In this document: piece after piece, positions 1-60,200 of the stretch
How positions within the stretch are numbered: position 1 is the stretch's first letter
Layout: every line of letters starts with the position of its first letter
NCBI GenBank assembly: GCA_963281155.1
Contig: CAUJLY010000002.1
Coordinates: 3,472,001-3,536,000, forward strand
Length of the DNA: 64,000 nt
Reading direction: 5' to 3'
DNA from: Rhabditophanes sp. KR3021
Lineage: Eukaryota > Nematoda > Chromadorea > Rhabditida > Alloionematidae
The notes under the pieces: generated by a model
What the model saw: only the letters and a program-made list of their open reading frames with translations
Told to the model about the DNA's origin: nothing
The model's database searches: none
Program-made: the position numbers and the translations under genes

Positions 1-3000
1 AAGTTGAAACCGGATATGGTAACTTTAATTTTATAATATCTTAATATGTAATAAATTAATTAGGCTGATAAAAACGAAACGAACTTCTCCTATAAGCTGT
101 CAAATTATGCGACAGCCAAGGAACTTTGGAAAATTGGAGTTGAACACCACACATTCTTTAGACTAATCCAACCGGAAGATGACCTTAAGAGAGGAAACAT
201 GTGTGCCCCACGAGGAAACAGAACATTCCGCTACTATGGACGCACCCAATATCAAACTAAATTACACGCTACCATGTTTGGTCAGATGTCCCCAGATTTC
301 GAAAGATCAGGGCATATCCGTGTTGATCCAGAGGAATTAATTGTTAGTTCTTTGGAAACAACAACTCCAGTCAAGAATGTTGTTGATGTTCAATCCCATC
401 CACACGAAAAGACTTACCACATCGTTGAAGGCGAGGACGTTTCGATTGATGAAGATGACAGAAACAAAACTTTGATCCAGGTAGGTTAATTTATATATTA
501 AAAATGAAAGATTTGAAATCTTTCTGCTTTGGTGCAGCACAATGATTGAGTAACTCTTTATTCATATTCATTCATATAAGTACATTTAAGATGAATAACA
601 TTATTCATTGATAGACGAATCGTTTTTCAACATTGGTGAACACATTTTATTCACTCGTATTGAATTTTTTATTAAAAACCCCGCATGAGTTTATTGCCAC
701 ACTCCTTCACAAACCATTACTCCCCTACACCCTCTTATTGTTGCTTACTCTCAGACCGATCAAGGATTGGCCTCTTCAAAATCGAGTCATGGTGCCGAAT
801 ACCTTATCCAAGACTCCCATTTCTCACATGACACTTTCACTAGTAGTGGCTACGCAACTGGTGACAACACGTTTAGTAACACACCTCGTTCTGACCCTTC
901 CACTTCTCGAATCCGTTTCGCAGACCGCGTCTCGATAGATTTAGAAAAGAAGAAAAAAATTAGAAGAACATTATTTGGAAAGGGAAAAGAAAAGGAATAC
1001 ATGAGTCATGGAAGCAAATTACTTGGATACCCAACAGATGATGAAACACAAGTCGAAACGAACGTATTATTAACTCAAAATTATGAATTCCAGCATTTAC
1101 CCATTGATAGGGAAGTTGCTTTGTACCATCCTGGACAGTCAACTGGAAAGGGAGGCATTACTTGCTGTGGACCTGCCAAGAAGAACGGAAAGAGAAATGC
1201 TAAGGGTAAACTTATCTATAAGAGTGAGATTTCCAAACCTCTCTCAATAGAAGAAGACCTTGAAAAGTACCCTTTGCGTTACAAATCTGACCCATATCAC
1301 TCAGGAGTTAGCTCAGAATCGTACTTTGTTAACAAAAAACACAGAAAATTCAAGAGACTTCAACATGAAGGAACAAATGAAGTTATCAAAAAGGAGAAAG
1401 TTGACTTCAAATATTATCCCGCTTTACAACCTGAAGCTGTTGTTGACAATAGATTAGAAAAAATTTATGAGCTAGAAAGTGAGCCTCTTCGAAAGCTGGT
1501 TAACAAATATCATTCCGGACTATGTTAGTTTTAAAAAAATGTCAAATAATTATCATTTATAATATCAATATGAGCTTCGAATATGAGATCAGCGACTTTG
1601 TCATCCATTTCCAGATGCATGAGATGGACTTCTTCAAATGATGACTTTCCGGAGTCAGAGTTTGTGAGTTGTGGTCTTAGAGCACCAATGAGAATACACG
1701 CTACATTTTCAGCGACTTCTTTTGATTGATACTTCACCTTTAGTACAATTACCTCCTTCTCACTCAATGACTTACACAGACTACTCCTTTATCATCGAAC
1801 AACATTTCTAGTTCACCAGCAAGATTGAATTTTAATTTGTGGTCGTGCAATCTTTGGATAAAGTCTTTTGTTCCTCCAACGTATCGAATCCCTTTCATGA
1901 TTCCTGCTTTATTCCAGTTACCCTTTATTTTTAAAGCATCTTCTACAATGTTTACATTTGAAAACAGAAATATATTTAGATTTCTTTGTACAACATCTAA
2001 GCAAAGTGATTCACCTTCAAAGCTTGTAAACCTTGTTCAGGAGGTTTCGAATCTTTGTCATCTGATTCCAAGAAACTTTCTTCGTCTTTTGGGGTGAATA
2101 GTTTTGACAACATTGGACCACATTTATTGCTCGGATATCCCTTTTTGAATGATTCAGTAAGCGTCTATAATTTTTTATCAGACGGAACTTGGGCTATCTC
2201 ATTGATCAATTCAATCATACAAGTGGCATCATTGATTTTTGACTCACTAAGTCCTTCTACTGGCGGCATGTTTATAACATTTTTAATCCGTTCTACTTTT
2301 AACAAAATGTCGAAGAAACATCCCATGAAAGCTGGATAATTGAAGCAGGAGTAGATGGTATGGTGTATCAATTGATATTCAGGAATAGTAGTACTAAATC
2401 CACCTGCCTTGAAACTATACAAGATATTTCTATTTTTAAATAAGAAGCTAGACAAATGAGCAGTTTTAAAATGAACCATAGTTTGGAGATCATTTTCAAA
2501 TTGATCCCACATTACTTTAGCATTTTCAAATAGTCGGTTCATTAATAAACTCTCTCCAAGAAACAGGAACATTGAATCCCTCAAATGCCAAGTTTGCTCA
2601 TAATTCCTATACTTTTCTTCTTCAAATTTTGCTGTTCCAGCATATGGAATTTGAGCCAGACTAATCATTTCAACAAAATCCTTGCGTTCTTCCACACTCA
2701 TCTCCTTATCTAGACAGAAAAGTGAATCATTTCTTCACTCTTTGATTGATCTAAAGTAGTTATTACAATAACATATGCTTTTGATCTTACCTTCAATAAG
2801 TTTAATTGTTATTGTGTAGCAAACCAGCATTCCTATCGTTTCCTCCATCATCAATTTGACCTAAAATTAAAGAATTTTTTGATGAAATTAGTTTTTAAAC
2901 TTACTTTCTTCCACAGCATTAGTACTTCTTCCAAGGTAATGCTCTTATTTTGAATACAAGCAATCTTTTCTTCCATAAAGATTTAGTAAACACATAATAA

Positions 3001-6000
3001 GGGCGATGTTGGGCACTAAAACAAACAAAGCAAATTAGTAAACGTGCATTTGATGTCAAATATCGCCATGGCACGTAAATAGCTTCCAGCTAATAATCAA
3101 AGGTACAAAGTCTTAGACCAATTTCGGTAGAGTGTTTCACTAACACAATAATTTAAAAATTAAAAACATGCAAATCTATTACGCTGTTACTTTAATTCAT
3201 AAAATGGAATTTCAGCCACGAATAAAAAAGAAACTAAAGAGCAAAAGAAAATTGCTAAAAGAGAAAAGTTATTGACAAATAAATCCAGTCCTGTCAGAGA
3301 AAGTCATACAAATAAATGTAGATGCATTCCTTGCCAATGTTTTGGTGGTTCCAAAATTCCAAAAAGCAACATTCCACGTAATAATATTTATAACTTTTCA
3401 ACAGAACCTTTTGATGGCCAGTTAGATGAATGTTCACGAACAAATGATATGGGCAATACTCCATTGAATGTTGTTTGTGAATCTTACCCTGTTCCAAAAT
3501 ACAAGGCAGCCAATAGGAAACAAAAGAGCGGTGTCTTATCTTGCCTTAAATCCAAAACACCGATTGAAGAAAGAAAGCAAGAAGAGTATGGAATTCAGGA
3601 AGAAACCATCGAATCCGATCCTCATCATATTGTTAAAAGAGTATTAAGAGATGAGGATTATCCTGTCCAAGAGCCGGATCAAGTTCAAGCTTACATCAGC
3701 CATGATCAATTTGATCCTTCTATACCAGGAACTAGCGACCAGTACCTTGTACAAGAGAGCGTTGAAGAAAGAACTGCAAGCCCTGTCAAAAATTACATAG
3801 AAGTTAAAGGAAGGAAAGGAAAAAAATCATCGCCTTCAAAGGAATCGTATGACTTTAATAAGGACAAATATGAAGGGCCATTGGAAGATGTTGAAAAATC
3901 ATATGACCTATTTACATTACCACTCAATGATCATGTTGATACTTACGATTATCCTAAATATTCACCTATGAAGAAGAACAAAAAAACAACCATTACCAAT
4001 GAATATTCCAACAATTACGGGTATAGCACGGACAAATATGACGGACCACTAGAAAATACTCAAAGGACGAATGATATCAACGACACCTCTTTAGCAGATT
4101 ATGTTGAACACTTTGAAGTTCCTAAATATTCCCCTGCCAAACCAAAAGAAAAGAGTCCCGTAAAAAGTGATCCCAATCAAAAATACAATTTGTCTTCAGA
4201 GCGTTATGAAGGTCCACTAGAAGCTATTGAAAAGTATTTTGACATGGAAAGTAACCCGATTAATGAACACGTTGAGTCTTATGAAATTCCAAAGTACATA
4301 CCTCTAAAGATAAACACGAAGAAAGACATTATGAAGGAAAGAACTCCTTCTCCCGCCGAAGGGGAAGATATCAATTACCCTTCTGCTACTGTTGTTACTG
4401 CTGCGGAAATTGTTGTTAAATCCAAAAAGCAAAAGAAGTCGAAAAAAAGTGAAGTTAGTGGAAATTATAATGTTATGGAACAAAATGAAATTGATGAATC
4501 GTCTTTAACCACTGACAACCTACCTAAATATGAAAAAATTATTATTAATCATCCCGATGAAGATCGTGTTATTGTTAAAGAAGACATTGTTATTACTCAA
4601 TCAACTGAAGAAGAAAAACCGTCGACCTCATTTGTTAAAGAAGTAACTATTGTTGAGCCTGAAGTTGTTAAGAAAGATTCCATTAATGAGGCTGACATTC
4701 GTAAAGAAAAATCAAATTCGTTGTCTAGATTATTGGGAAGATTCAATCGTAGTGGGAGACGTGATAGCAATCATGATGATATTGTCGACGTCAAGAAAAA
4801 GAGTGGAACGCTCCTTTCAGATAGAGGATAGTGGAGTAGAAGATCCTGGAACAGATGCCGGAACTTTGCCAAGACTTAATGAAGAACAAAATGAGCTTAG
4901 CGAAAAGAAAACTAAAAAGCAAAAGAAGGCATCTTTGCTATGCAGTAGTACTGGCAAGAAAGGGTCTATGGCATATCTTCCAATTGAACAGGATACAGAT
5001 AATAAAGTCTTGAAGAATTATCCTACTGCTGAAGCTCCATACGAAGGTGAAGTTTTGAATATCGGAAGAGACTCCGATTTGCCAACCAATGATTTGAGAC
5101 AAAATGTGGAAGTTTATCATAGTGGAAACTCTGTTAAACAACCATCATGGAATCGTGCCTTTGCTATTTTCACAAGAACAAAACACGATGGAATAGAGGA
5201 TGTTATTAATAAGGAAAACATCAATAAAGAATTATATGAATTAGATACGACTCAATATGATGGACCATTTGAAGTGATGAACGTTCAGACTCAATTAGAA
5301 ACCAGTCCCATCCAAACTTATTCCAAAGTCTATCACTCCGGTCAATCTTTCCAAAAGAAAGGCAAGAAGAGCTCCTCCAAAAGACAAACTCTTAATGCTG
5401 CCGATTCTGAGGAAGATGAATATCATCCCACATCCAAAGAAAAGTATTCTTCTCTTAGTAGATTTATGGGTCTATTTAATCGTCCGAAAAAGACTGAAAC
5501 TCATGTATTTTCTGAAGGTGATTCAGGGCTAGATGGTTCTAACAGTTCAGCTGAGGTACCTGCCAATTACAGTATTAGTAACAAGAAAGTCAAAAAGTCC
5601 AAATACGATTTAGACCCTCAACCATTTACTGGAACGTATGAAAATACTGTTAAAATCAACGAGTTAAGAACAGCACCACTGACAGAATCTGTTGACATTC
5701 AAGCGTCTGGTTCTTTGCAAAAGACAGGAACCTTAGATACATCCTACGATGCTTCTATTGGCTCTGAAAGCGACGAAGAAAAGAAGAATACACGTTCAAA
5801 CACTTTGAGTAAATTTATTCAACGTTTCCATCTTCAAAAGAAAAGCAATGGAGGCAGTGATAATTTGAAGAGCTTTGAGAAGTACCCTCCAATGACAGAA
5901 AGCTTTGAAGGTAACCTTGAAACTGTTGAGCTTACCAAAACCATGCCAACTACTCCACTTGATACTTCAGTAACTCTTTATGATGTTCCTAAATATCAAG

Positions 6001-18000: not shown

Positions 18001-20146
18001 GCATTTGTTAAATGTACTCTTTATAGTCGTTGAGTAGTATACTATCAAAATGCGTTGAAAAAAACTCGGTTTTTCCAAAAGTCGAGATGATCTGTAGAGA
18101 CGAGCATGTTAAAGACTATGGATACCCAGATGCGGTTTTAACGGTCGGTAATTTCACCTCATTATTGTGGCACTCTTCTAAACACCCTCTCTACCACCTT
18201 CACCACGCTTGTTTTGTGTACCCTATTAACCAACCTACTTTCTATCGTTATCCCTTGGCAATATATCAAAGTTGATGAATAATTCAATTTATCAATCACT
18301 TCTTCTTTAGCTTTTAATATAAATGTAATTAGTTAATGGCATTAACAAATTATCTGCTTTAGGATGAATCGCTCCCTCACACAACTGTTCAATCTTGGCA
18401 GGAAACGGATATTGGTCCAGAAGTCGTTTTTGAGGAGACAGATTCTCGCGGCAAGTCTTAACTCGTTTTAACTAATATTAATTTTTATTTTAGGTAAGTA
18501 AAGAACAATCAAAAAATGTACACAAAATAAGAGTTGTTGAATATCAAAAACATTAATTAAAAGAGGCAACAAATATTAAATTAGCAGAATATTATTGAGA
18601 AGTATCTTTAAAGAAAAATATATTTTGTCTGTGACCATCTCAGAGATTCCTTTGACAGTTTCTGGATGTTTTCTGAGCATAACATCGTTCGATTGTCCCG
18701 ATCCGTCGATGTTTGTCAATACACTTTGAAGATCCAATATGATAGCATATTCAAATGCTAGAGCTTCATTTTCCAGTCACAATAGAAGACTACAATTTGT
18801 CTAAAATATCCATAATTCTTGTCTCTTTGTCATTCAAGGGGATGAATCTCCTAAAGTTTGGTAGTTAAAATGTAATCAAGAAGCCTGGTTTTAACATTCT
18901 TAGGCATGCAAGAGGCATTCGATATCTGCCTTTCCTTCATTTCTTTCTGTATAATTACGTCCATAACAAATTCCCCGAATTCAGATTCCTAGATTGTTTT
19001 CTTTCCTCAACTTTTATCAACAAGAAAAGCTCCTATTTGAACTTCAAACAAAGTATGACTCTAGAGAATTATCCCGACTCCATATCCATTAATTCTTTTG
19101 ACACAAAATTCATGATAATCTATTGGAGGCTCATCCTCAAAACTTTCAAAAAGTGCCACTGCATTCTTTCTAAATTATCTTTGATATCTCCTACTATCGA
19201 CATATACTCTATTTCTAGAGTCACTTCAGATTCCTCATTCAATGGCAAATCAGTGTTCTTATTTGCTGAGACACGTTGCAATAATTAACTCAATACTTCT
19301 ACCACTGTGAATTTGATTATAATGGTTGATAGTTGATAACTTACCTTCTGCATTGACATCTTCTCTTATTGTCTCATTTCTTGTTAATGGGGCACTTGCA
19401 TCAACATTGTTGATTTTGCTTGACCATTCTTGATTTGAGCTATCTGATAATTGTCGTTTCATAGTCAAAATATTAACTTGAATGAGATATAAACACCTTT
19501 ATAAGTGAGGCAAATTTGAATGTCAGCAATCATTGTCTTTTTAAAACATAATTAAAACGAATTTTTTATATTTTTAAATATGATTTTGCAATATTAATCA
19601 ACGATTGTTGTAGGCAAAGTTGTAAAGAAAACCGTCAAAACACAGCAAACCAGAAATACTATAACTAGGCAATCTTATCAAACCTTCAACCTTGATAACG
19701 AACCCATTCAAACTATTGATAGAACTCAAAATATTGTTGTTCCTAGGAATCAAAGTGCCAGTAGAATACCAGTTTTAGAAACAAGAACCAGAACTATTGC
19801 TTATGAATGTAGACCTGAAGAAGCCTTATGTGGCCCTGATGACGTCGTTCCCGGTGATTTTGTCTCTAGTAACACTGTCACCCAGGGAAACAAAACAATT
19901 GAAAGTGTAACAGTAAGTGTTCATGTGTAAAACAATTTATTTATTTGCATATTGTTCTTTTAGTATAAAACCGAAAAAGAAGGTATCGTTTCAACTCACA
20001 CCGAACACAAAGTTATTATACACTCGGAAGATGGCATCGACCATGATGCTGAGTTGTCGAAAGCTTTAATTGAGGCAACTTCAATGGATCCTGATAAGAC
20101 CGTTGAGATTGAAAAAATAGAGATATCTCAAAAAACTCAAAACTAA
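1..20146 (+). CDS. Giant protein 4.1-like FERM protein (paralogue A), 5' end outside the window
   Basis: Membrane-skeleton adaptor of the protein 4.1/coracle family. The window opens inside the FERM C-lobe. Inferred exons are 1-18, 64-480, 755-1205 (or 755-1528), 3216-16370, 17031-17162, 17456-17806, 18363-18449, 19614-19912 and 19964-20146, and all phases agree. Exon 64-480 has the FERM and FERM-adjacent hallmarks VEHHTFFRL and FRYYGRTQ. The last exons carry the 4.1 C-terminal domain: a WQETDIGPE stretch, a KKTVKTQQ stretch and a DGIDHDAELSKAL tail. Between them lies a 13-kb, roughly 4,400-residue exon of repeats not seen in textbook 4.1 proteins. An alternative transcript probably ends at the stop at 1528. 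Four places need a one-base correction to keep frame: near 4796-4800, 12259-12263, 12277-12279 and about 15205 (the last could instead be a 49-base intron). The intron at 18450-19613 has a GC donor. Family identity is clear; exact exon use in the repeat half is inferred. Confidence 0.85.
1531..2976 (-). CDS. Uncharacterised gene nested antisense in an intron of protein 4.1 A
   Basis: I do not recognise the product. Exons read on the minus strand are 2905-2976, 2791-2860, 2189-2709, about 2032-2164, 1776-1996 and 1531-1737, and they give one open frame of roughly 400 residues. The introns are very small: 44, 81, 24 (or 48 with another acceptor), 35 and 38 bases. The phases match, which argues for a working gene. 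The middle is a helical-looking stretch (residues about 60-220). Near the C-terminus there is a segment GIRYVGGTKDFIQRLHDH, whose spacing resembles the second motif of GIY-YIG nucleases (YVGxTxxxxxRLxxH). No convincing GIY motif precedes it, so a nuclease function is only a hint. The gene sits wholly within the inferred 2-kb intron 1206-3215 of the host, on the opposite strand, as do the other intron-borne genes in this window. Confidence 0.65.
8440..9965 (+). repeat. Tandem 180-base coding repeats, array 1 (CFAC-basic-acidic unit)
   Basis: About nine in-frame units of 60-62 codons. Each has an SPSCFAC core, a PKSKKAKLDV basic run, then EVGVDEIRVEQPELHADIE and an SIPQKEI segment. Core starts fall near 8448, 8634, 8812, 8997, 9175, 9355, 9538, 9724 and 9898. 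Units differ by few bases, and length differences are whole codons. The array lies inside the giant 4.1-like exon, so it varies protein length without breaking frame. Confidence 0.9.
12110..13065 (+). repeat. Tandem 180-base coding repeats, array 2 (CFACVRKPKSKK unit)
   Basis: Five to six units share the core SPSCFACVRKPKSKKDKLEV followed by VEYKAPEV and an NEPEIHADLEVTPPEKEL segment. The last four cores are spaced exactly 180 bases apart (about 12474, 12654, 12834 and 13014) and are almost identical at the nucleotide level, which indicates very recent duplication or gene conversion. The first unit contains two single-A differences that break the frame (12259-12263 and 12277-12279). They are probably assembly errors within the repeat. 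Confidence 0.88.
16371..17030 (+). other. Intron of protein 4.1 A without a recognisable gene
   Basis: A 660-base intron between CAG|GTGCGA and TTTTTTACAG. It is AT-rich and pyrimidine-rich, and I see no antisense ORF of substance. The next two introns (17163-17455 and 17807-18362) are likewise low complexity. The second has a possible short alternative exon at about 18027-18138, beginning after TTTATAG and reading SLSSILSKCVEKNSVFP, but its donor is ambiguous. Confidence 0.5.
18450..19613 (+). mobile_element. Mobile-intron-like element, copy 1 (whole intron of protein 4.1 A)
   Basis: This intron runs from the GC donor (CGCG|GCAAGTCTTA) to TTGTAG|GC. It is nearly identical over its full length, inverted, to the cyclase intron 34364-35525. 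Similarity begins at GGCAAGTCTTA, immediately at the donor, and fades only in the last 15 or so bases before the acceptor. The lengths are 1164 and 1162 bases. No long terminal inverted repeat is visible. The aligned position in the tandem paralogue (KIIKTVKTQ region, about 25906-25945) has no intron, so this intron was gained here or lost there. Confidence 0.85.
18560..19468 (-). pseudogene. Decayed gene carried antisense inside mobile intron copy 1
   Basis: On the minus strand a frame starts at 19468 with MTMKRQLSDSSNQ, a basic and Ser-rich start. It has its own splice donor (GTAAG after DVNAE) and acceptor, then continues through several frames: LPLNEESEVTLEIEY, FEDEPPIDYHEFCVKRING, ESEFGEFVMDVIIQKEMKE and finally ALAFEYAIILDLQSVLTN followed by MLRKHPETVKGISEMV. 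At least three stops and two frame changes interrupt it. The same stops occur in copy 2, so the element was copied after its gene had decayed. No nuclease motif is recognisable, and the product is unknown. Confidence 0.6.
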
Positions 20147-22412: not shown

Positions 22413-25400
22413 ATGAAAGATTTGGAAACAAGCGTTATCATGGAAGATCCTGTTGCAGATGGTACCGTCACTTCCAATGTCCAACCTGGCGTCAAGGAAA
22501 AAAATCTCCATCCCGCCATGGTTCACTTCTTGGATGGAACTAAGATGACGTACCATGTTCACGTAAATAAAATTATACCTTTGTCATGCAATATTAACTT
22601 TATTCCCTTTTTAGAAGAACGCTGAAGGTCTTGTTTTGTTTGACCTTGTCGCTAAAACGCTAAATTTAAATGAAAAAGATTACTTTGCTTTGAGTTGGAT
22701 CGACGAGCATAATGAGAAACAATGGCTCTACAACGACAAGAAAATTAATAAGAAAGCCAAAGGTGACTGGGAGTTCAAATTTGAAGTAAGTCTGACAAAT
22801 ATTTATCAAAATAAAAATAGCATTAATATAAAAACATAAAATTAATCAAAATACTGCCATTTAAATCCACAGCGGATGCCCCAACTTTTATGTAATTCGC
22901 AACAGTTGATGCTACTACTCCAACAGATTCAGCTACACGGACAATTGATGGGTAAATAACAGAAGTTTCAACATCTTTATATAATTGAAGAACCTTTTTT
23001 ACATTTTCTTGAGAAGTTACCCATTTTAGATTATTGACGAAGTTGTCCTTCCTATTATGATTTATGTGGTCGATTCGTAGCTTATCATCAGGATTGGCAA
23101 TGAATGTCAAACCAACAGAAGAATAAGCTGTAAAAGATTTTTGCTCGTGATCGTAGATTGAAATTTTGATTAAATAATATCCAACTGAGTGAGTTGCAGA
23201 TCGGAGAGGTCTCAATGTAGTACGGTTTCTGAAAATACCAAATTTGAAACATTGTAATTGTGTTCAACTCCGTTATAAAAAATTCTTCTCCATTCAACTG
23301 TAGTAAAACTAGCATCCATGGCATCATCAACAATATCTTCATAAACATTATTTTGCATGGTTTTAAATTTAATGTAAAGTTATAATAATATTTTGTTGTT
23401 ATAGGTAAAATTTTTTCCACAAGAACCAGAAATATTGAATGATGACATTACTCGCTATTTATTATTTCTCCAAGTTAGGGAAGACATTTTAACGGGAAAA
23501 ATTCCTGTTTCAAAAGCAACTGAGGGATTACTTGCCTCTTACGTTTTACAATCTGTTTTTGGAGACTATGCGGAATGTGATAATTACAGCGACAAAATCA
23601 AACAAGTACTTGTCACAAAAGATGAATCGCCTGAATTTGAGGAAAAATTGAGGGAATTACATATTCAACAAAAGTAGGTTGATGGTACAATTATATCTAA
23701 TTTGAGTTTGTTTTTTAGAGGTTCTACTGCGTCAGAAATGGAACGTTTATATCTTGAAGCTGCCAAACAACTTTCAATGTATGGAGTTGTTTTATTTTCA
23801 CTCAAGGAACTTAAGGACAAACCAACACATATCGGAGTATGTGCATCGTCTATAAATATTTACAGAAACCAAACAAGGGAACATCGCTTTGTTTGGCAAG
23901 ACATAGTGAAGGTCAGCTACAGACGAAACAATTTCTCAGTTAAAGTCAAGCCAAATATTGTAAGTATCCGTTTGGCATGTTTTAATTAATTATTTATAGT
24001 TGAAAGAGAAGAAGGAAGCAGTATGGACTGCCAAAACTGTTGACTTTAAGAAAGCTAAAAAAATTTGGAAGGCTTGTGTGGAGTACCATTGGTAAGACAA
24101 TAGAATAGGGCCAGACATAAACTTATTTTCTTTTTAGCTTCTTCAGATTAATTCAAGCGGAGGAGGAAAAAGAGAGGGATTCTTCAAATTTGGTAGCAAA
24201 CGATTCAGTTACAAAGGACGTATGTTTGGGTTATTCAAATTAAAACTGAGTTATTTATGCTTTTAAATAGTTATTAAGATAAGAATATTCTTACTAACTT
24301 TATGTCAACTAAAAATACAAAAATATTAAGATTAATTGTTGATCATAATTTGAACTTTTCCAAAAATAATTTTGTGTCATCACGTAGTTTGGTACTTTTA
24401 CACAATTTGGACATTCTCTTCTTTTATTTGTTCTTTCGTTAATAGCTATAACGTAATGCTTTTGGCATTTTTGATTAGTACAAACAAAACAAGCGGTTTT
24501 GTGAGAGGAATTTGATCTAACTCTAAGTTGTTAACTCCTCTGTTAGGGCAGGGGTATCTTTACAAATCTGCTTGTAGATTTCCGGACTTTTAGTTATTAG
24601 CTTCATACAATCACTGATCTCTGATTTACAATTGAACGTGATAGTATTTCTCGTCCAAACTTTTCGGTCATGCGGCTGAGGGATACAATACTTTCATACA
24701 CTTGCCTAAAGATAGGAATATCTTTGATCAAACGGCTTCTCAAATTGGTCAAATAGCTTTTGTGGTAGAGGAATAATTAAACGATACAAAAATTACCAAT
24801 AATTAGGTAACTTCATGCAATCTTCAATACTGTCATGACATTCTTCCTTCTCATCTTTAACTTCATCTAAATCAACCTTCCCCATTGCTTCATTTATAGC
24901 CTCTTCTTCCAAAACAGATGATTTCCTTAATTTGTTTTTCTTTTGAATAACTTCTTCAGGCTCATCATTACCACTTGAAAGTACAATTACGTCACCTTTT
25001 GGTTTTTTAAGCCAAGACAAAGTACTTAAAGGCGAACCCTTTCTTTTAATCGTGTGCCAAAAAAATTAAATGACTTAGCTATGTTTTTCTACTCCTTTTA
25101 TAGTAAAAATTAATGGGGACATACCCTCAAAATTTCTGCACGATATTCATTAAAATCATCCAGTTACTTTTATTTAGTACTAAAAAAGCGCTTAAGTGTG
25201 TTGTCATCAAAATTAAGTAAACTCATTATTTTGTTATTTACTAATTATTTATATGCCTTAGGTACCCAATTTCAATCGAAAATGCATTCAAATTTAATTG
25301 GGTCCGAACCTAATATGAGCCGTGACAAGAGTAACGACCAATTAAATGGCGGATCTACTATGTCAGAAGTTGGAACAAGTGAATTTGGTGCTAGTCCGGG

Positions 25401-35700: not shown

Positions 35701-38700
35701 CAACTGGCAATTATAAGTTAAATATTGTATTTTAATAAAATTTAAGGAAACTGTATATATACCAAAGGTTTTTTAAATTAAGAAGTTATGTTTACCTTTT
35801 TTGCTGTTTTTAATATATTAATAATTATGATGTTATTTAGCTTATGACGTTTAATAAATAAAGCCTTTTTATTTTAGCTGCCTATTCACTCAAGCAGGAG
35901 TAAACTATGGAGAAAAACAGTGCCAATAACGCTGTCAGGAAAGTCGAAAAGAAACAACGATAAAATGGCTCTGATATTTGGTACGAGGCAATTATCCTAT
36001 GAAGCCACTGCAAAAGAACACCAATTGTCGAGGAAGTCTCGTTATCTGTAGAAAGATCCGCCAGCTAAAGGTAAGTTAACCATTTCAAGAAATAAGTAAT
36101 TCTTTTAGTTCCAGGCTAGCTCCCCGCCAAGTCGCTTCTTTGGCTTGTTTCAAATAAAGAATGACTTTTTGTCTGAACATGAAATGCTACTAAAAAAGTC
36201 GACCAAAGGTTGAAGCTTGCATGAACATTATTAAAGAGGACTTTAGGATGCCTTCTGATTTTTCCAAGGCCTTTGTCAATCCAAGTGAAGTGCTCGGGTT
36301 GAGACAAGACTAGTTGACTATATATGTTCAAAGCAAGTGTTTTGTGAGAAAACTTTAGATGAAACAATAAGTTTAAGGTACTTGCTGATACGCACACGGT
36401 GTTTAATGATGCTGGATTAAGCTAAGCTAATTTTGCCGTAAACGACGATAATATTTTATCACCATCTATGAAGCCTCAGATAAGTATCTGTTCTATGTCG
36501 GAGAGTCCGAAGTGCACAAAAGGATTAATACACACTTTTCAGAAAGTTGAATCTTGTTTTAGAAAATGGTAGTTTATTTGACAGAAGGGAGCTAGAATCA
36601 ACCAGATTAGAGCCCATCTAGCCTAAGCATACCACCTCAAGCTTCCAGTTTCTGTCAAAGAATTAGCCGAAAACTTTGAATTTATTTTAATTGAAGATTC
36701 AAGAGATGATTACCAGCTTATCCAAGGCAAATGTAGTTTACCTTAAGTCTACTCTTCAATAATGTCAATGCATGTGCTGTTGCTGACATCTTGGTTAAAA
36801 TTATGCTCAAGCCTAAGATGACTTCTGATGATTAATTTAATTTAAATATTTTGATCCCACTTTTAACTACAACAAAATTTTTTACCTGGGCTATTTTTTC
36901 GGCCGTGTCTTTACACTCCGCATCGTATCTTGTAATGGATGCTGCATTATGATGGTGGCTAATGGCATTATCTAATGCCGCTACTGACAAAGCTTCAGAG
37001 CCCAAATCTTGCAACCCACTACTTCTACTTCCTCTCAAACTGTTGTTAATGCTACTTTCATGAGCCAAATCCATCGAAATTTTACCTCCAATTCGTCGGG
37101 CAACTACAGCCGTCTCATCTTCATCGTCCATAAACTGATCCTTTTCTGGACAACTCATGCTGAATGATGTTTTCCCTAAAGCCATTAGGCTGCTACTTTT
37201 TCTTCGTCCACTGGAGATAACAACTTCTGTGTCTCCACTAACATTGAGATTGGAAGTAGTTTGTAACTGCATATCTTGTTCTAACTCTCTGAATTTGAAG
37301 CTTCCTCCCAATTGAGAATTCGGGGATCCACGAGTAGATGAAGAATGGGCAATTGCTTTCATCTTATTATGCACTTTTCTTCTAAAACTTTTGTTCGGCT
37401 CAATCGCTCCCTTGGTAATTGAACCACCTGCCTCAGGGCCTAACCCAAGTAATGAATCTGTTTTCAATTCAGCTGCAACTTCATCTTCTAATTCTTTTGA
37501 TCTACCTGCAATAAAGTATGTTTTCAAGGACTGATGAACAGGACCTTCATCTAATTTGTATCTTGTATCCAAAAATTTAGCCGTAGTTTCACTGATATGA
37601 ACTCTGCCAGCTATCCCCGTAGACTCCATTTCATTTGCTAAAGTGACATCATTTGAAAACACATCGAATTTAAACCGCTTAGTCCCAACCATCCCACACA
37701 TCACTTTTCCACTGTGGACTCCGATTCTCATGTTTACTTCTTGCTTTCTATCTATATCAAATTGACGAATGGCAATGATCATAGCTAGCCCCAACTCAAT
37801 GCATTTGTTGGCATGATTTTTATTAGGAATAGGGCACCCACAAACCGAGTAGTAACAGTCGCCAAGTGTACTGATCTTCTCACATCCTAATTTTGAACAC
37901 AAATAATCGAAACGGCCAAACAAATCATTTAGCAGTGAAACAAGCTCATCGGCACTTTTATTTGAAGACATTTTGGTGAAACCAGCTACATCTGCAAACA
38001 CAATCGTAACTTCGTCCATTAAATTCATGGTAAAGGGTCTAAATTTGCGGACATCGTTCACTTGCCCAAATGATGGATTCACTGAACCCGGAACCCCTTC
38101 TCCTGCCGAAGATCGCACTGTCGTTGCATTTGACATTCGATATGCTGAATCTGCTGATTGAGAAGGTCGCCTTAATTCACCGGCATCTTTCACTAAGTCT
38201 TCGGCCATATTTTCGGGCATTACGGATAATATCATGTTGTTTTTAAATTTAGTTTCACGATTCAAGTCATCATGAATCTAAAATATCCGTTAATTATAAT
38301 TAATGTCACTTAACTTACTAATAAACTTAAGCCAACTGTTAGGAATGTCTTTCTTTGTCTAATTTGGGTCAAGATGTACAGGTGAATTCCCAGGCAATGT
38401 ACACAAAAGTGTGCTGCCATTCTTATATAAGATGGAACTTCCACAAAACCGAAACTTTGATTTTGAATGGTAATTAATTCAAACAAAAAGGAATACAGAA
38501 TATTAAAAATGATGCAAACGTATAAGGGTAACGGAATGACTGTGTAGACAAGTAATATCACCTGCGTACTTGTCGTCAACGTAGCCATTGGACCCATAAA
38601 AGATCCAGTATGCTGAGAGAATATTAATAGCGTTATTATGTATATTAGAAATGAGGATAGAAAAGACGTTGGCAAATAAAAGCGTTGATAATGATCAGAG

Positions 38701-45366: not shown

Positions 45367-45592
45367 TACGATAGATGCAATAAATATATTGAATACAATA
45401 ACAAATTAAAATTGTCTACTCTTTTATATAAAAACAAGTAATATTTAAAATCCAAATTTCATAAACACATAAAATCAAAAGGCATTTTGGTAATATCCAA
45501 AATTTAAATTTTATAAACACAAATTTCCAAACCTCTTTGGCAATATTCAAAAAACATATTTTGTTATAAAAATAATTTAAAATCAGCATTAA

Positions 45593-48236
45593 TTAATTGA
45601 TGTATATGTTTCTTTGTACTGGCTTAACGATCTCCACATAGTTCGCCGGAAGCATACCATGTTGTAAATTACGTTGTAAAGTTCCACTCATCCATCCTTC
45701 ATCTATCTTGTGGCAATTCACAATAATATCATTTTCTTGAAAGCTGATTTCGTCTTGGTCAGCTGCGACATAGTCATACAAAGCCTTCACTGTAAAACCC
45801 ACTTGCTTGGAGTCAAATGTTTGTTTAGAGGCTGGTGATTTTACGCCACTAGGTACATTTGTTACAGTTTTACTGTTGTTGTTATTTGAAATATTATTGG
45901 CTTTTCCATTAATTTTATTATTGCCTATAGTAACATTATTTTGAGCTAATGTATTAACTAGATTATTTTTAGCAGACGAATTTTCTTTTTCTGTTTTGCT
46001 TAGCATATTCTCAAATTTGTTGAGTATATTGGATGAGGCAAGTGATCCCCATTCTCCATTCATTGGGTCGTAATCGGCGATAGATTTTACAGGGCGATTA
46101 CCAGGTGCTAAAATGACAATGTTATTCGTTATAATTAATGATTGGATGAATTTTACAAAACAAGAATAAAAACCTTTAAATTGCGGATCGCTAGAATAAA
46201 TTATGAAACCCTGAGCAGGTGTAAACAATGCAGTTACTGAAATAAAAGCTAATTTTTTTGAGAAACTAAAAGTAAATAAATGAAGTGTGTAAATATGGTG
46301 CATAAATGAAGTGTTCAAATAAAGTGCACAATTTGTACTGATTTTATTGGACACAATATCAATTATAACTAGCACAAAAAGGAGATCAACAAAAATATTC
46401 ATCTAACAAAAAAGACAACTAAAAGTGGATAGGGGTGTGCACAATAAAAAATAAAGCTAGGATCAAATTACAGAATCATATTTTGATCACATAGTTGGAA
46501 AAATGGTGACTTTTATAGGGTATAAAATCTCTCTACCTTCATTAGTGGAAGACATGCATTGAGAAGCATTTGAAATTCCAGAATCACTTCTTTCATCAAC
46601 ATCTTTGGTTGGTCGAATTTCATCCATAAGCTTCTTTTTGTCACTTTCACCAGAATAAGCATTTTTAGATACAACTTGTGTGTTTCGTAAATGTCTTTCC
46701 AATTCAGGATCTGTAGCAATTTCAATTTTGGTGCCTTTTACATTCTTCTCAAAATCTGCAGTATAATTGACCTACAAAATATGTGAAATAATTTTTAGTT
46801 AGACATCACGGGTATTTACATTAGATTGCAATTTAGTATTACCGGCTAGACGTAGCATTTCTGGTGTATCACAAACAACACTTGCTTTTGTTTTTGGGTA
46901 ATGAGATTCACAATAAGGCATTTTGTCGTAGCCTTTATAATTTTTCATATTCAAAGCCATTCCGCAAGAAGAGCACTTCAAAGTACAAAATGGTGTTTTA
47001 GATCAATTTGGATCGAGATGGTGTTTTAGTTTTATTTAAATGAATGTTGTATGCAAATGTGAACGGAAACCATGATCAACCCAATTTTCCTTAGGAAAAT
47101 GAATTCTATGCATTAATTGCAACATATATGATTAAATCAAGATGTAGTGCAGCAATTTTATGCTCTTTTTATCAATTTATGTCCTAGAAAATGTTCAAAT
47201 AGCTTAAGATGAAGCCAAGCATTCTTGCTCAACATCGTGCTGGTCCGGTAAAAGATTGAAGAACAGTGTTCCGTCATATAACTATATGTTTCATAGTCCT
47301 GATGGTGCCAAAACAATTGAGGAAGCGATAGCTGCCACCAGAACTAAACCGTCAATTCAGGTGTTTGCAACAGCTTTTTACAACGGAAAAGTGATGGTGT
47401 TTTTAACAAAGGAACCAATCAACATAAACATATTCGCCAACATTATTTGCTTCCCTCATTAAACGAAAATGATGCCAAAGATAATGTCATTGATAACACC
47501 CAAAACAAATTCTTCCTAGCAACCGTTTTGAAAGTAACTTAAAATCTACTGCTTCAAATGAGACTTTGTTGATAAGCAAATTCAAGGGTAATTAAACATA
47601 TTCTAGTTATTTTTTATTTAATTCAGGTAATGGAACCTGTACAAATATTAAAGAAGGAAGAGATTTGAAAATATTTATCTATGTTGGAAAGAACGAACTA
47701 ACTGAGTTAGTAATAGCTGATTTAATTGATCCCTCAAAAGGGTTCTCTTATGTTTTCGAAAAGTAGTTTCCTCAAATGGCGTGACAATGTTTAAATTTAC
47801 TTGTACTAAAAAAGAAGCAATGAATCTATTATCTGATTTGTGGACACCGGAACATGACAAAGCAGTTAAGGTACCAGAAGCAATAGATGCTAGAAAACAA
47901 AAATGTGATAAAACTATTGCTCCTTTCAAAGAAATAAAGAGACTTAATGATATTCGCCTTAGATCTAACTGAATACTTAATGTTAATAGTTTCCTTTTAA
48001 TATACATATTTATTATCACTATATCACATATCCCATTGCATTTAGATGTTTCTTTAGTAATAATAAATCGGTTAATCTAAAGCTTATATTACTTCTTTTC
48101 AGCAACAAATTTTATCAATAAAAATTAAATAACCTACCTTGAAGCAAGCTTTGTGCCATGATTTATCTAGACACTTAAATTCTTCAACAGGATAAACAGT
48201 TTTTCCGCATTCTAGGCGAGCACACTTTTTACTCAT
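45593..48236 (-). CDS. LIM-nebulin-SH3 protein (LASP-like)
   Basis: Actin-associated adaptor of the LASP/nebulette family. Four exons (48138-48236, 46820-46975, 46537-46771, 45593-46107) encode 334 residues. The N-terminal LIM domain (residues 5-60) has [28 protein letters not shown] and YCESHYP zinc ligands. Nebulin repeats follow ([48 protein letters not shown]). A low-complexity Asn/Ser linker leads to a C-terminal SH3 domain ([38 protein letters not shown]). The exon 1-2 junction splits the LIM motif CFK|CSSCG, and that 1162-base intron carries an antisense gene relic. All phases agree. Confidence 0.92.
46976..48137 (-). mobile_element. LASP intron hosting an antisense gene relic
   Basis: A 1162-base phase-0 intron, CAAG|GTAGGTTATT to GTACTTTGAAG|TGC. 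The acceptor is AAG with no pyrimidine tract, as in the cyclase twin intron. It splits the conserved zinc-ligand segment of the LIM domain. It is not similar in sequence to the 18.4/34.4-kb pair despite equal length. Confidence 0.6.
47211..47972 (+). pseudogene. Decayed gene antisense in the LASP intron
   Basis: Starting near ATG 47211 ([16 protein letters not shown]), the plus strand reads in shifting frames: [20 protein letters not shown] and [20 protein letters not shown]; then NKHIRQ-type and [20 protein letters not shown]; a 40-base intron near 47590-47627; [20 protein letters not shown]; and lastly [20 protein letters not shown] to 47972. Frame changes and stops indicate decay. No family is recognisable. 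The position (long host intron, opposite strand, own small intron) matches the other relics. Confidence 0.45.
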
Positions 48237-50364: not shown

Positions 50365-50706
50365 TTAATAAGTTAGTTCACTATCTGGTTGAATATAGTT
50401 TTCCAACAATGATGATTTAAGTAATGTAGTAGGATTACTAGCTTTTGAATCTAAGCTTGCTGAATCCGTTGTTTTAGAAATTTTCTTTGGTTTCGATCTT
50501 AAAGAAGTTCTCTTCACAGACCCTGAAACAGTTTTCCTTTTTAAGAATTCTATTTTGGCTTTAACATCATTTTGAAGACTAGTGTTGTTACATTTAATTT
50601 TTTCCATGCCATCTTTATCTTTCTTAGCTTTGATACAATTCGCTCTACATTTTTTGATTAGAATAAATATTCCAAACAAAAGTAAAACCTGTGAACACAA
50701 AAACAA
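50365..50706 (-). CDS. Putative type-III membrane protein with a Lys/Ser-rich tail
   Basis: The frame encodes an N-terminal hydrophobic helix (VLLLFGIFILI), a KKCRANC stop-transfer, then a basic, Ser-rich tail of about 85 residues. A good 3' splice site (TTTTTGTGTTCACAG|GTTTTAC) falls inside the first codons, so the true start is probably in an upstream exon. MEDSLASNSNK at about 50785-50753 would fit in phase but would need a non-GT donor (AAG|GAGTAT). Product unknown. Confidence 0.45.
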   Translation of the reverse strand: MFLCSQVLLLFGIFILIKKCRANCIKAKKDKDGMEKIKCNNTSLQNDVKAKIEFLKRKTVSGSVKRTSLRSKPKKISKTTDSASLDSKASNPTTLLKSSLLENYIQPDSELTY

Positions 50707-50819
50707 ACCAATTAACTAATTAAGATCCGTGGTTCGCTGATAATATACTCCTTATTTGAATTTGACGCGAGGCTGTCCTCCATGACGGCAAAATAACATG
50801 TAACTATTCTGACATCATA

Positions 50820-51273
50820 TCTCTCTTATTAAGCATGAAAATTTGAATTACAATTTACTCAAATTTTGTGACACTCACACACTAATTTTTATATATTTAT
50901 ATTTATGGCTTCAGGTTTAGTCGTATTCAACATATAATGTCTGTCCGCCCGACATAAAGTCATCACCAGCAAATTGATACGAAACAAGTATTAGCAAGCA
51001 TCTAATTGTATATCTACAACGTATGGGTTAGTAAATGGACATCAGTAATAAGAGTACGTACATACACTTTATAATGAAAGCACAACACATTGTATAATAA
51101 ATGTACGTACATACACACTTTATAGTAAATTAATCCCTATTAAGTGACGCATTTATAATGAGAGTATAAAATATACCCAACACATTTATTTGAAACAATT
51201 AAACGTTTGTCACATGAATTTATCGTTAACAATAATAATAAAAATTAGGAAAACAATGTTTTATACAAAACAA
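50820..51273. other. AT-rich spacer between two minus-strand genes
   Basis: Contains two copies of a TACGTACATACAC-type motif (about 51050-51070 and 51100-51118) and AT-rich sequence. No gene is seen. Confidence 0.5.
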
Positions 51274-54200
51274 TTAAATCTCAGATGATTGATAATTACT
51301 TGCAGATTGAGAGGGCCTTGGCTGAAATTGATCTTGTCTGGATGATTGAATATTAGAAGAACTTGGATTATTAAAGGTGTTTGAAGAAGATGCTCCAAAA
51401 ATAGGTCTTTGAGGCGGCGATAAAGTTGAACCAAACGCCTGAGGCGCGGGTCGTGAAGCTGCGAATGCATTAGCAGCAGGAAACGAAGGTTTAACTGTAC
51501 TGCTACCTTGTGCAAATGGATTTGGTGGCGCTGCTGTAGCAAAAGGATTCGGACTTGGTGGGGCTGCAGTTGCAAATGGATTCGGAGGAGCACCAAATGT
51601 ACGTCTTGTATTATTCTGAGTAGGAGCATCATCCCATTGTCTATCAAATACCAAATCACTGACGTCTTTTGTTGTTTCTCTTGATAGCAATTCCTTTTTG
51701 GTGGGATCTTCTGCGCGCATGCTAACTTGTCTTCTTCTTTTTGATCTGATATTTTTCCCAGCCTCAACTTGCTCCTTCTCAAACTTCTTTCTTCTGCCCC
51801 AAAGTATACAATAAAATATGGTTGCTATAAGAATAAACCCAAAAATGGTGAGAATCGATGTCATCCACTTTAGAGCAATCTCAAGCTGCCTACTTCTGCA
51901 CCAAACCCACGCACCTCCCGGTGATCCATCAGAATACCACGTCCCATTCACACATTGTCTTACTAAATCTCCATGTGAATAATATCGAGGCTTACAACTA
52001 AATTCAACGGTATCTCCATCGAGGTAGTTAGCCGATGGAGGAGTCTTAATCACCCCCAAATTCTTAATCAACGGCCCGCAAGAAACTAAAACTCGGGAAC
52101 CTTTTTTCTGCAGTGCTAAGAAAGCTTTGTGTTTCTTTAATGTTGTTAAGGCTATTTCTTTCTTTCCTGAAAAAAAAATATTATTGATGTTAAAAAATTT
52201 AAATAACTGTGGTGCAAGCTGCAACAACTGTATGCCAACTGTTCTTTAGTATTTTTAACATTCAATATATGAATATAGGCTGAAAGGCATTTTACGCGCC
52301 ATAATATTCAGTTATAATTTTATTTGCAACAAGATCACCACATAATTGGTGTTATTTAATCTAAAATGACTGACAAATCTCGAAAAAGAAAGACTGAAAC
52401 AATTGAACGAACTTTCAGTCAGCCGTTGAGCTAGATTAGCATTGAGGGAAAGCCCACGAAACCGTTCAAGACTGAAAGAAATCCCATTTAGGAACAGTTA
52501 GTCGTTTGTTGAAACTAACTAGTATGTCTTAAAGTTCGATTAACTTATTAATTATTTCCTTTTAAAACATGCTAACGTTGACAAAGTCCCTGAACTACCT
52601 CCTTTAATTTTAATCCATACTTCTACCTCGTTTAATTTAATAAATTTCTCAATCTATATTTTTACACGTTTTACTAAATTAAAAAACTTTCCTGTCAATA
52701 TATAATCATATTCACATTGTGCAACTCCCATACATGCAACTCTTACTTGTTCCAGTGTAATAACTCTAGAAGCATTCATATCAATTGTTGTTGGCCAATA
52801 TACAGGCATATAACTCTAAAATGAAATTATTAGTTTATTATATAAATGTTATAACTAAAATTTGAATATACTTTTTAAGAAAATAAATTTCATTCTCCTA
52901 TTTATTAACTCCATCAATTATGGTCAAAAGTCTCAAAAAACCTCAAAAACAATCAAGAAAGTCGGAAACAGTCAATTAAAAAAAGTGTCTCAACTACCGG
53001 TTCTTTTGTTGCTGAAAATTTAACTATTTAACTATTGAAAAACTCATTGTTTTAGGGTAAAGAAAATTAGTTGGGCAAGCGTTCGAACCGAATACACCGA
53101 ATTTGCCTGTTTTAGACCATATAGATCATGACAAATTAAATAACTTTACTTTGAGATTTGTAACCTATAAAGAGAATGCATTAAATGGAAAGGCAAAGCG
53201 TATTCTTCAGATTGATTTTAGTGGCAAAGAGACTGAGATTTTTGGATCTGTACTATTGGCTGCTGATAGCGATGGTATAATGGTTCTACTATATGTAAAT
53301 ATCTTGCCGATGGAAAATATTGCAATGGCTTCAGGTATGAATATTACGACGCCGAAATGCCTGAATAATTTTAATTATCTATGTTCTACTATTTTGCAAT
53401 TTTAATTAAACTCTAAAATTTTGAAAACTTTGTAAATTTTTTAAAGCCCACTTTTAAGTAAATTTTACGCCCCCCAATATTTTGCCGATGAGCCAAACAG
53501 CGAAGGATTGTAAATGGGTTTAAATGTATCTGTAAATAAGGGAGTTCCAATACGATCATTTGAACCATCAACCACCCATTTGGATCCGAATTGATCATAT
53601 ATTTGCTGTGTTACTGATGCTGAATGAGTCTGGAAATAATAAAGAACAAATAATTTAATAGTTAAATAAATTTTAATTTATAGATAGATAAACTTAATGT
53701 AAACTCTAAGTCTATAAAATGCGTTTAAAGAAAAATAATGATTATTTTAATTCAAAACATTTCATTTGATCTAATCAGGAAGACGTATTGTCAATTTTAA
53801 AATTGTAATAAACTTAAAGGTAAATATTACTTTTAAATTTGATCATAACAAAGCTATTTTTTTCAATAATAATCATGGATTCAGTGATTTGATACTGGCA
53901 TCATTTATGTTCCTACTAAACATTTACTATCATTTGATAAAGTAAATCGGAATCCTTGATCATTAATAAATTTAACTTACATCTCCAGTAACTCGGGTTG
54001 ATGTGCCAGATATTGTCGTCAAATCATCGGTCGGATCTTTATTGTATGTGCCTAGTAATCCAAGTGTAGTGTAGCATCTATTCGTTCCAACTCCTGTATC
54101 TACTGCAGAATTAGCCGTTTGCCCTGTTCGGCATGTTGTATTAAATGAGGGAGGTAAGAAAACCATTACATCAAGCATTCCGTTACTTTCCGAGACTTTC

Positions 54201-57200: not shown

Positions 57201-60200
57201 AGATACATTCACAGCACCGCCTCCCTAAAATCATTTATTATTCTACGGTTGTTTTAAATTTACCAATGAAATACTCCATGGCGGGGCAGTAATAACACCT
57301 CCAGTTGAAGCGTTGGTGCATCCTGCAGGGACAATAACTTCGTCCACTCTATGAATCCATCTCCCGGGTGTTACACCGTTGGAAAAGACTCCTAATTTCC
57401 AAATACGTCCTTCCCCTGAGTAAGGAAGAGGGTAGTATCCGGTTCCATTACCACCATTGAAACCAGAATAGGCTGGATTCCCACCAAATCCATTTAAGCC
57501 ACCCTACATTTGAAATAAAATTTTAGTTTATTGTCGTTTAACGTACCGCATCCGTTGAAGATGTCCAATTTAATCTTGCATAATTGAAAATAGCAAATGT
57601 ACGAATTTCATCCGTAGCAATCACAAGTTGGAAAGTATTTTGCCAATCTTTGACATAATCGAACTGCGAAACATCAAGAGCTCTTGGTGCTCCTCCATAA
57701 CTCATTCGGAACTAAGTAAAAACTATGAAGTCGTTAATATGCTTTTGCTTACCCAAGTGACAATAAATGCATGTTCAGCTCTCCATCCATTGGCTCCTAA
57801 AAATATGGTAATGAACGCTTAAGGTTTCAGACTTGCCTGTATAACTATCTTGCACATGATTAGTAATATTGTCCAAAAGTTGAGGATCAATAACCATTCC
57901 GGGCTAAAAAGAGTTAAATCACAATGAATTTTAAATTTACTTGATTGGTTCTTCCAGGCATCTGCCGTTTTTTTCTTCCTGCAAAAGTTTGTTGCTGAGT
58001 ATTAAAGTTTTGATTAGTAAATTGCTGTTGCTGCTGATTTGTTTGAGGGTTAAAATTAGTTTGTGTATTAGTTTGTTGATTGCCGGTATTAGATCTTGTT
58101 GGATCATAAGGATTATAATATTCATCATCATCGAGTCTAGGACGATGAACCGAACGATAAAATACGTTTGAAATTTTAATTGATCCAATCCTTTGAAACG
58201 CAGCATCTGCGTAATAAGGAGCAATGAATGAATGATCACGTTCTTTTGGCCATTCCGGATTAGGAAAGGTATAAGGAGGTAAAGCATAAGAAGGCGTTGC
58301 AAATGAAACAAAGCCCATTGGATAAACAAATGTATAATTGAATCTATACCCGAAATAAGGACAATCGAATCCAAGATTTGCCTATTAAAACATAATATGA
58401 TTAGACATTCTTATTGATGATGGACTTACTTGTTTTTCACGACCAGCTTGCCCCATTAATTCTTCATCTTGAACCCACCTTCCAAAAGGATAAAGGATAT
58501 TAGTCCATCCTTCTTCTACTCTCATATCATAATCCCCACGATCCTAAATTAGCGCGTTATTAAGTCGATTATTGCTGTATAGTTAAATATACATATTAAA
58601 TACCTTCTTACTTTATAATATGTATATTTTAATTATTTGTAAGACAACTGTTTTGAACAGACGTCGCATTATTTTTGATATATTTTTAATAAATAATTTG
58701 CCTTTGTTCTTCTTTATTCAGTCTTGACTTTAAGAGGAAATCAATACCCTTCTTAAATTCAACAATTATGTTGGTCAAAAATGATGTTTGGAATAAAATT
58801 GGAACATTAATTCCCGCCAAAATAAGAGCAATTTGATGATTTTGAAAGATGCCATATGGAAATTAGAGGGGTGTGCCACCATTAAATTTCATCATATAAG
58901 GGGTATAAAAATACCATTAAATCATTTTTATTTTTTTGGCACTTCATCATGTCTAAAAGAAAGGAGTCATTTGAAGCTACTCCCTCTTCTCGGATTAAAA
59001 AGTCGAGAATAGAAGTGATTATTATCTCAGATGATGAAGATGAGAAGGAAGAAGTACATGAAACCAGATGAAGAGTGTTTTACTGAACGTCAATGACCAG
59101 ATAGATTTGAAGCAATTACCACTCAAATGTCCTTTGGAAAAAAGTGTCAGATTAGATATGATTTTTATTCTGTCAGGAAATAACTACCTGAATGTGACCA
59201 GAAATTCAAAGATGGGCCAACAATGAAAATCGGTCAATTTGACGCAACGTTTAAAGACAAGAAACTGACTAAAAAACCACTCATCTGCATCAACATTATT
59301 AAGAAGTACGTGTTCGACAATAAAGAGCTAATTGCAGGTAATTTTTGTTTTTATTTTCTATTAACAACCTTTTATTATTTTAGAAAACACGGATTGGTTT
59401 GATGAGTCCAAAAGAGGGGATATTGACTACGACCAGAGTTATATCTCCAAACTTAAAAGTCCTTTGATCAAGACATGCCAGTCTTTAGAGATGTCTACAA
59501 AAGTATTGTGAAAGTCGTCCGACCAACAAATGCTATAAAAGTTTGGACAAAGAACAATATCACCTATAATAGTGTCATTGAGATTATTTGTCGCTGTGAT
59601 GCTCCCAATTGTAATGCAAAGTACATTTATTCAAAATAACGCTTAACAACAGATTAGGTAGATTTGGACTACTGGATGAAATACATGGCTGTAATATTTA
59701 TATTTGCTTCTTGAAATAGATGGAGGTTATCATTCAACCCATCTGGTCGTCCAAATGGAGTTGCCAATTTCGAGAAACAACAAAAGCATGATCAAATGAA
59801 AAATAAGTATCGCCAAGACAATGAACTCCACTTAATCAAAATCTCCTACTCAAGGAGACAATGATGACAGATGTTCTTAGAAGATGGACTGCCGGATTTG
59901 GAAACGTTGGGTCATTGACCAAATTTTATGGGAAGAACACACAATATCAATAATGTTTGTATCTTATTTCTTTTAATAATTTAATAAAAACTTTAATTAC
60001 TTTCTAAACTTGATTGCAATATCAATAATATTTGTATCTTAATTTTTGTAATAATTTAATTAAAACTAACCAAGTTTTGGGCATAAGTTTGAAAATTTTG
60101 TCTGGCAGTTTGACGCTTTTTGCGAATTTTTGGAGTGAACTCTGAATCTTTTTGCTGATCCATTTTTAGTGCTCGTCTCACTTCTTCATTGTATTGCTTC

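Follow-up and report, generated by a model that had tools for sequence, protein, structure and literature searches.

In the genome of Rhabditophanes sp. KR3021, a free-living nematode, spliceosomal introns have, we consider it probable, been copied nearly from splice site to splice site into unrelated genes, with an antisense homing endonuclease gene of the HNH or GIY-YIG type driving, or having once driven, their spread. The work began with a 64,000-nucleotide window (contig CAUJLY010000002.1, positions 3,472,001 to 3,536,000), part of contig 2 of the six contigs (44.8 Mb) that were scanned. One HNH protein of this genome agrees at 139/139 residues with a UniRef entry assigned to Rhabditophanes sp. 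KR3021, of the family Alloionematidae. An initial annotation of the window had described long introns holding antisense genes or relics, some of them HNH nucleases, and had proposed that in an animal nucleus spliceosomal introns house such genes and may even be mobile units for them. The description is confirmed in part, including the HNH genes at 22823-23358 and 53061-53405, and the proposal finds support both in the window and in copies across the genome. The host gene names used here (4.1, cyclase, LASP, Mesh-like) are the labels of that annotation; Pfam confirmed FERM, VWD and Sushi domains in the window hosts. Feature coordinates are collected in Table 1.

Two copies of one intron lie in the window, copy A in 4.1-like gene 1 and copy B in the cyclase gene. 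Positions 34372-35526 match 19606-18450 at 97% identity over 1157 columns, the match ends 7-8 nt short of both acceptors, and the exons around the two copies are unrelated. The copy A junction reads in frame as ...ETDIGPEVVFEETDSRG^KVVKKTVKTQ..., the intron interrupting GPEVVFEETDSRG^KVVKKTVKTQ, and the copy B junction reads in frame as ...RSHFAEG^YKKKCQDN...; by eye, a GG or GAAGG stands at the borders of the pair. Our gene finder, which was trained on the window's own exons and fuses neighbouring genes, missed both copies because it knows only GT-AG borders. With flanked copy B as query, 40 of 99 candidates were scored and gave 63 non-self matches (this and the other match tallies were counted by hand from tables). 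Nineteen of these start at query positions 72-79 and none before 72, the exon ending at 64; at the far side, where the intron ends at 1226, copy A extends to 1227 and a single match to 1238, an overrun of 12 nt. Because the 97% copies end near splice sites in unrelated genes, these introns appear, from sequence comparison, to have moved as units.

The first intron of 4.1-like gene 1 (1524-3215) belongs to a second dispersed family, for which 40 of 126 candidates were scored, yielding 64 non-self matches. Thirteen start at query positions 88-95 and none earlier, the first intron base being 85; seven end exactly at 1776, the final base of the acceptor AG, and one runs on to 1790. One copy, with 95% identity in the core, occupies an intron of a zinc-finger gene which we take to be LYAR-like, and there too the similarity reaches the acceptor AG. 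Taking the two families together, none of the 127 other matches among the scored candidates crosses the border on one side, and the other border is overrun once in each family, by 12 and 14 nt. The antisense open reading frame (ORF) of 189 aa in this intron has no significant Pfam match; downstream of it, also antisense, is the ORF with a weak GIY-YIG match. Elsewhere in the genome, members of the 189-aa family are likewise followed closely downstream, on their own strand, by GIY-YIG matches (contig:position C4:5175757/C4:5176498, C1:4718564/C1:4717892 and C3:990558/C3:990745), an arrangement which suggests that the two parts form one two-part nuclease gene. A GIY-YIG core had earlier been placed at 36453-36548; that stretch has no PF01541 match in the genome scan at E<=1, nor does its peptide at E<=10, and a weak match lies in the first intron instead (1764-2036, 13.5 bits).

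Nuclease genes of these types are numerous in the genome. At E<=1 the scan gave 56 matches to HNH_3 (PF13392; 29 above cut-off), 16 to NUMOD4 (7 above cut-off) and 52 to GIY-YIG (PF01541; 23 above cut-off), while the HNH family PF01844 gave zero, PF13392 being the fitting model. The window protein 22823-23263(-) scores 28.4 bits against HNH_3 (cut-off 24.8) and 13.9 bits, below cut-off, against NUMOD1; its upstream part continues in another frame to 23358, and a NUMOD4-like start is recognised there, both by eye. Used as a query, this protein finds 61 genome matches at E<=1, of which 36 contain internal stop codons (8 of the 56 short HNH_3 matches do). The HNH label of this gene is thus secure by score; that of 53061-53405(+) is weaker by profile (13.8 bits) and is upheld by a search with its sister (E 0.013) and by the tree, where it pairs with locus L056 (support 100/95).

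Merging the HNH_3 and NUMOD4 matches at E<=1 left 74 places, 47 of which, mostly the better-scoring, were examined with at least 500 bp of flank per side; the other 27 are for that reason weaker on the whole. By a rule applied to the gene finder's output (gene-score floor 12 for HNH, 10 for GIY-YIG), 40 of the 47 lie in an intron of a host gene on the opposite strand, with intron lengths of 373-2036 bp. Reading of place 18, where two HNH stretches occupy, antisense, two introns of a leishmanolysin-like gene, brings the total to 41. The rule's three same-strand flags were read as the nuclease gene's own predicted exons, and no HNH gene in a sense intron was seen among the 47. As a chance control, the same rule was applied to 300 random stretches, all from the one window, which itself contains such introns; 28 (9%) fell on the opposite strand and 47 on the same strand. 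For strong cases the counts are 29/47 HNH places against 15/300 random stretches (Fisher p 2.8e-19). GIY-YIG places were sampled as ranks 2-9 of the 52 matches, rank 1 (C3:396736) being omitted as a likely ordinary worm gene, and six of these eight lie in opposite-strand introns. Among the 8 matches of the Tc1-like transposase domain DDE_3 in the genome (E<=0.001), judged by reading and not by the rule, at most two (L087, L090) are flanked on both sides by opposite-strand exons. Antisense intron placement of the nuclease genes is genome-wide. If relics were just as frequent in intergenic DNA or on the sense strand, this would speak against introns as their particular home; such a pattern was looked for at the 47 of 74 places and not seen.

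The host introns themselves have predicted spliceosomal donor and acceptor borders and keep the host frame. Ordinary borders had been described for the window introns; the 97% pair (18451-19613 and 34364-35525) has GC-AG instead of GT-AG. Of the extents proposed earlier, 34364-36860 resolves into two introns with an exon between them, and the second HNH intron is 52816-53468, where the gene finder had overlooked an exon. We scanned 40 host peptides with Pfam, host 16 being left out. In 13 of them (hosts 1, 6, 9, 12, 18, 23, 26, 32, 35, 36, 37, 50 and 65, again a hand count) a domain spans the exon junction with at least 10 residues on each side, for example SepSecS, UQ_con, Y_phosphatase, XRN_M or Peptidase_S10, and in others neighbouring domains flank the junction (FERM_N/FERM_M, Dynamin_N/DUF5600). 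Eight of the 40 lack supporting Pfam evidence, with no match in hosts 4, 20, 21, 22, 41 and 42 and only sub-cut-off matches in 38 and 51. The reported absence of a self-splicing core is borne out: Rfam, run on the window and on 19 loci, reported neither a group I nor a group II intron at gathering score, the sole match being a 5S ribosomal RNA (rRNA).

At two sites a matching sequence is uninterrupted. The stretch of 4.1-like gene 1 that copy A splits has an intact counterpart within an exon of 4.1-like gene 2 (25885-25953), and in host 35 an HNH intron splits one of three tandem ankyrin units, the equivalent site in the other two being uninterrupted. These paralogue and tandem-repeat comparisons point to insertion into formerly continuous coding sequence, intron loss in the other copies being the alternative.

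Comparison of 40 HNH introns with one another gave 288 alignments. In three pairs, all involving intron 34, the alignment begins at intron base 1 on both sides; in two pairs, both with intron 43, it begins at -2; and in one pair it runs up to the last intron base. Of 136 donor-near alignments, 33 have their start between -6 and +25 nt in both introns, and 11 of the 288 reach more than 12 nt into an exon, all of these involving hosts 0 or 41, whose borders are apparently mispredicted. In the best pair the introns share 88.6% identity along 525 bp reaching the donor, and their exons differ; generally the related HNH introns sit in different genes. The HNH introns are older than the families of the 97% pair and of 1524-3215. 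Two cation-ATPase paralogues 66 kb apart, presumably of the Na/K type (L060, C1:1545497; L006, C1:1611238), have HNH-relic introns apparently at the same place, by eye; the two introns carry different HNH subtypes.

A single-sequence protein search gave no relatives of the HNH genes; an alignment-based search did. A profile of 13 worm HNH copies matches I-HmuI (PDB 1U3E) with E 1.2e-17 over 108 profile positions; I-HmuI we take to be the enzyme of a phage group I intron. The 13-protein profile has 101 protein relatives, 99 of which list NUMOD or HNH_3 domains; the listing names an organism for only two of them, Rhabditophanes and Mammaliicoccus. A tree of 138 rows places the 13 worm HNHs, including both from the window and with 11 of the 13 from antisense introns, together with the second HNH domain of a 466-aa protein (C5:533771) at support 99/84, the bootstrap not having settled. 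From this grouping, the sampled intronic HNH genes therefore probably stem from one lineage that diversified within this genome. Mismatches by codon position 1, 2 and 3 are 0.252, 0.234 and 0.311 (summed over overlapping pairs), which is a modest sign that coding was once under constraint. The 466-aa ORF (C5:532271-535927; L001, L044) is open and non-intronic, has two HNH_3 matches and one to NUMOD4, and has a Tc1-like DDE_3 match at a distance of about 1 kb; it is a possible source copy. In viral genomes, a distant relative used as query hit 53 loci; a viral scan with the 466-aa protein itself found no relative, nor did a scan of prokaryote genomes with another relative. At L005:1330-2079 (C1:5583957-5585012) an HNH gene continues in one open frame behind a stretch that by eye resembles the C-terminal domain of protein disulfide isomerase, and in L032 the HNH is apparently preceded by remnants of the same joining stretch.

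The remaining window introns are more varied. In the Mesh-like intron 58544-60070 a dispersed element has 68 matching stretches including itself; of the 67 non-self matches none starts before 58767 and none ends after 60015, so that its ending at the splice sites, which was expected, is ruled out. A 51-bp direct repeat adjoins the donor there, and the stretch 58949-59864, earlier labelled a PD-(D/E)XK nuclease, belongs to the dispersed repeat family. The LASP intron had been listed among those with antisense genes; none is shown there, and what it has is a start shared with another Mesh-like intron. The antisense ORF 24793-25065 in 4.1-like gene 2 has no Pfam match. Two other features of the window are a very large exon of 4.1-like gene 1 (4827-12245) with tandem coding repeats of about 180 bp, and a 5S rRNA gene (62183-62301; Rfam 87.5 bits).

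Table 1. Window features, in order of position.
Feature	Position	Strand	Basis or remark
Intron of 4.1-like gene 1, dispersed family	1524..3215	+	flanked query 1440-3320
Downstream antisense ORF, weak GIY-YIG	1764..2036	-	PF01541 13.5 bits, E 0.09, cut-off 22.6
Antisense 189-aa ORF of the 1524-3215 family	2165..2734	-	48 genome matches including itself
Copy A, GC-AG intron, 1163 bp	18451..19613	+	4.1-like gene 1; borders and frame read
Intron of 4.1-like gene 2, 619 bp	22786..23404	+	gene finder; FERM_N and FERM_M either side of junction
Antisense HNH_3 gene, frameshifted	22823..23358	-	NUMOD4-like start, NUMOD1-like end
Predicted intron of 4.1-like gene 2 with antisense ORF 24793-25065	24230..25177	+	gene finder; weak left exon score 3.3
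Uninterrupted matching site GPEIVTEEYDEDGNKIIKTVKTQ	25885..25953	+	4.1-like gene 2, within exon 25262-26121
Copy B, GC-AG intron, 1162 bp	34364..35525	-	cyclase gene; borders and frame read
Predicted cyclase intron with stretch earlier called GIY-YIG-like	35704..36885	-	gene finder
LASP intron	46772..48137	-	about 115 bp from donor shared with Mesh-like intron 54581-54861
Mesh-like gene intron with second HNH	52816..53468	-	acceptor by gene finder, donor by eye
Antisense HNH relic	53061..53405	+	HNH_3 13.8 bits, below cut-off
Mesh-like gene intron with dispersed element (about 58767-60010)	58544..60070	-	

The nucleases likely drove the spread of the introns. The nuclease, made from its own transcript, would cut an intron-free site, and repair of the break would copy the donor intron in; the spliceosome would then excise the intron from the host mRNA, and for this reason insertion would cost little. 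With the nuclease gene on the antisense strand, its splice and poly(A) signals would stay out of the host transcript, so that selection would remove copies in sense orientation. After fixation at a site, the nuclease gene would decay.

Several observations weigh against a spread driven by the nucleases. By eye only, the junctions of related HNH introns revealed no common target sequence, which leaves site-specific homing a supposition. On average the similarity of exon ends to intron ends barely exceeds that in swapped controls (14.5 against 13.4), and a clear long direct repeat is found in one of the 40 HNH introns (place 42), which rules out long target duplications as a general feature. Six of the 47 HNH places (10, 17, 62, 66, 67 and 73) lie outside antisense introns, the open 466-aa double-HNH gene being among the non-intronic ones, as do two of the eight GIY-YIG places (L077, L084). 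The third family stops short of both splice sites of its intron, by 223 nt at the acceptor and by about 55-60 nt at the donor. The closest and youngest HNH pair has no excess of third-position mismatches (12, 13 and 7). The 1157-bp family has no recognised nuclease; because of this another mover is possible for it, and it may have moved in trans or by another route. Finally, the worm may be parthenogenetic, which would limit present-day homing. As a separate observation, at L024 (C3:2208555) the 3' end of the intron matches the final 38 bp of the exon upstream at 32 of 38 positions, a possible long target duplication.

Many families of introners have target-site duplications or terminal inverted repeats. 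Introners are families of similar introns; the 175 genomes in which they are known range 'from animals to basal protists', and they are derived from nonautonomous elements, most consistent with DNA transposition (PMC9860276, here from part of its text). Like them, the worm introns are similar in non-homologous genes with the similarity not entering the exons, and the family of 58544-60070 ends within its intron; they differ in being 1-2 kb long and in having nuclease genes, and the main text of that paper contains none of the terms endonuclease, antisense or nematod*. That an ordinary DNA transposase moved the worm introns, the antisense nuclease genes being passengers or captured cargo, is on balance somewhat unlikely. 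The ends of the 1157-bp and 1524-3215 families equal splice sites as in known introners, which are mostly ascribed to such transposition (PMC9860276, as above), and the 97% family without a recognised nuclease would fit. However, nuclease genes recur across many introns, DDE_3 has just the 8 matches given above (other transposase families lying outside the search), target duplications are not clear as a rule, and no inverted ends were noticed, although no systematic search for them was made.

It is less likely still that the elements entered existing short introns, so that shared borders come from tiny introns and the antisense bias reflects selection against sense insertions. Introns under 100 bp make up 19 of the 65 predicted in the window, the third family ends inside its intron, the 1157-bp repeat halts about 8 nt before the acceptors, and other mobile DNA is known to insert into introns with an antisense bias. 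Against this, the 1524-3215 family reaches the last AG base in seven copies and begins 3 nt past the donor, three HNH pairs start at zero offset, and uninterrupted sites exist in the 4.1 paralogue and the ankyrin units. Nested genes are common in nematodes, but that ordinary worm genes lie in these introns by chance is highly improbable, since a single nuclease family is present in dozens of copies, many of them broken and none found in a sense intron. Spread of whole introns by their antisense nucleases thus stays our preferred reading.

The initial annotation knew of no described system like this one; a comparable one has been published, the shintrons, spliceosomal homing introns of mirusviruses (2025; PMC12768974, known to us in part), whose authors describe the association as previously unobserved. 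Shintrons, like the worm introns, have spliceosomal borders, no group I/II signature, nested HNH and GIY-YIG nucleases and further nested genes whose function is unknown; VSR-like and PD-(D/E)XK nucleases occur in shintrons as well. Unlike the worm introns they lie in genomes of viruses of unicellular eukaryotes, and target-gene specificity is reported for them (PMC12768974, same portion). The main text of that paper uses none of the terms antisense, opposite strand or orientation. New relative to shintrons are the animal nucleus, the antisense layout and the units in many unrelated host genes, often with a decayed nuclease. A homing gene opposite the host transcript is also described for a nuclear group I intron, there in myxomycete ribosomal DNA and self-splicing (PMC9548176, from an excerpt), whereas no such core is found here. 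In the literature searched, with most subscription papers outside it, we found no report of an animal nuclear genome with such introns. We suggest tentatively, as a possibility, that the worm introns form an animal class of self-propelling spliceosomal introns, each with its own antisense homing nuclease, copied whole and silenced by splicing, which would account for intron gain in this lineage and be the cellular arm of the mirusvirus class.

The origin of new spliceosomal introns has long been an open question. In 2022 a survey of introns in nematodes considered why the sources of gained introns go unfound and gave unsequenced 'dark matter' as one explanation (PMC9169325, in the part available). 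In this worm, one small genome of six contigs offers both copies of introns located in unrelated genes and a gene that is a candidate for moving them. If the reading is true, nuclease-bearing spliceosomal introns would extend from viruses of unicellular eukaryotes to the animal nucleus, and the antisense layout would be explained as a way of hiding a selfish gene from the host mRNA.

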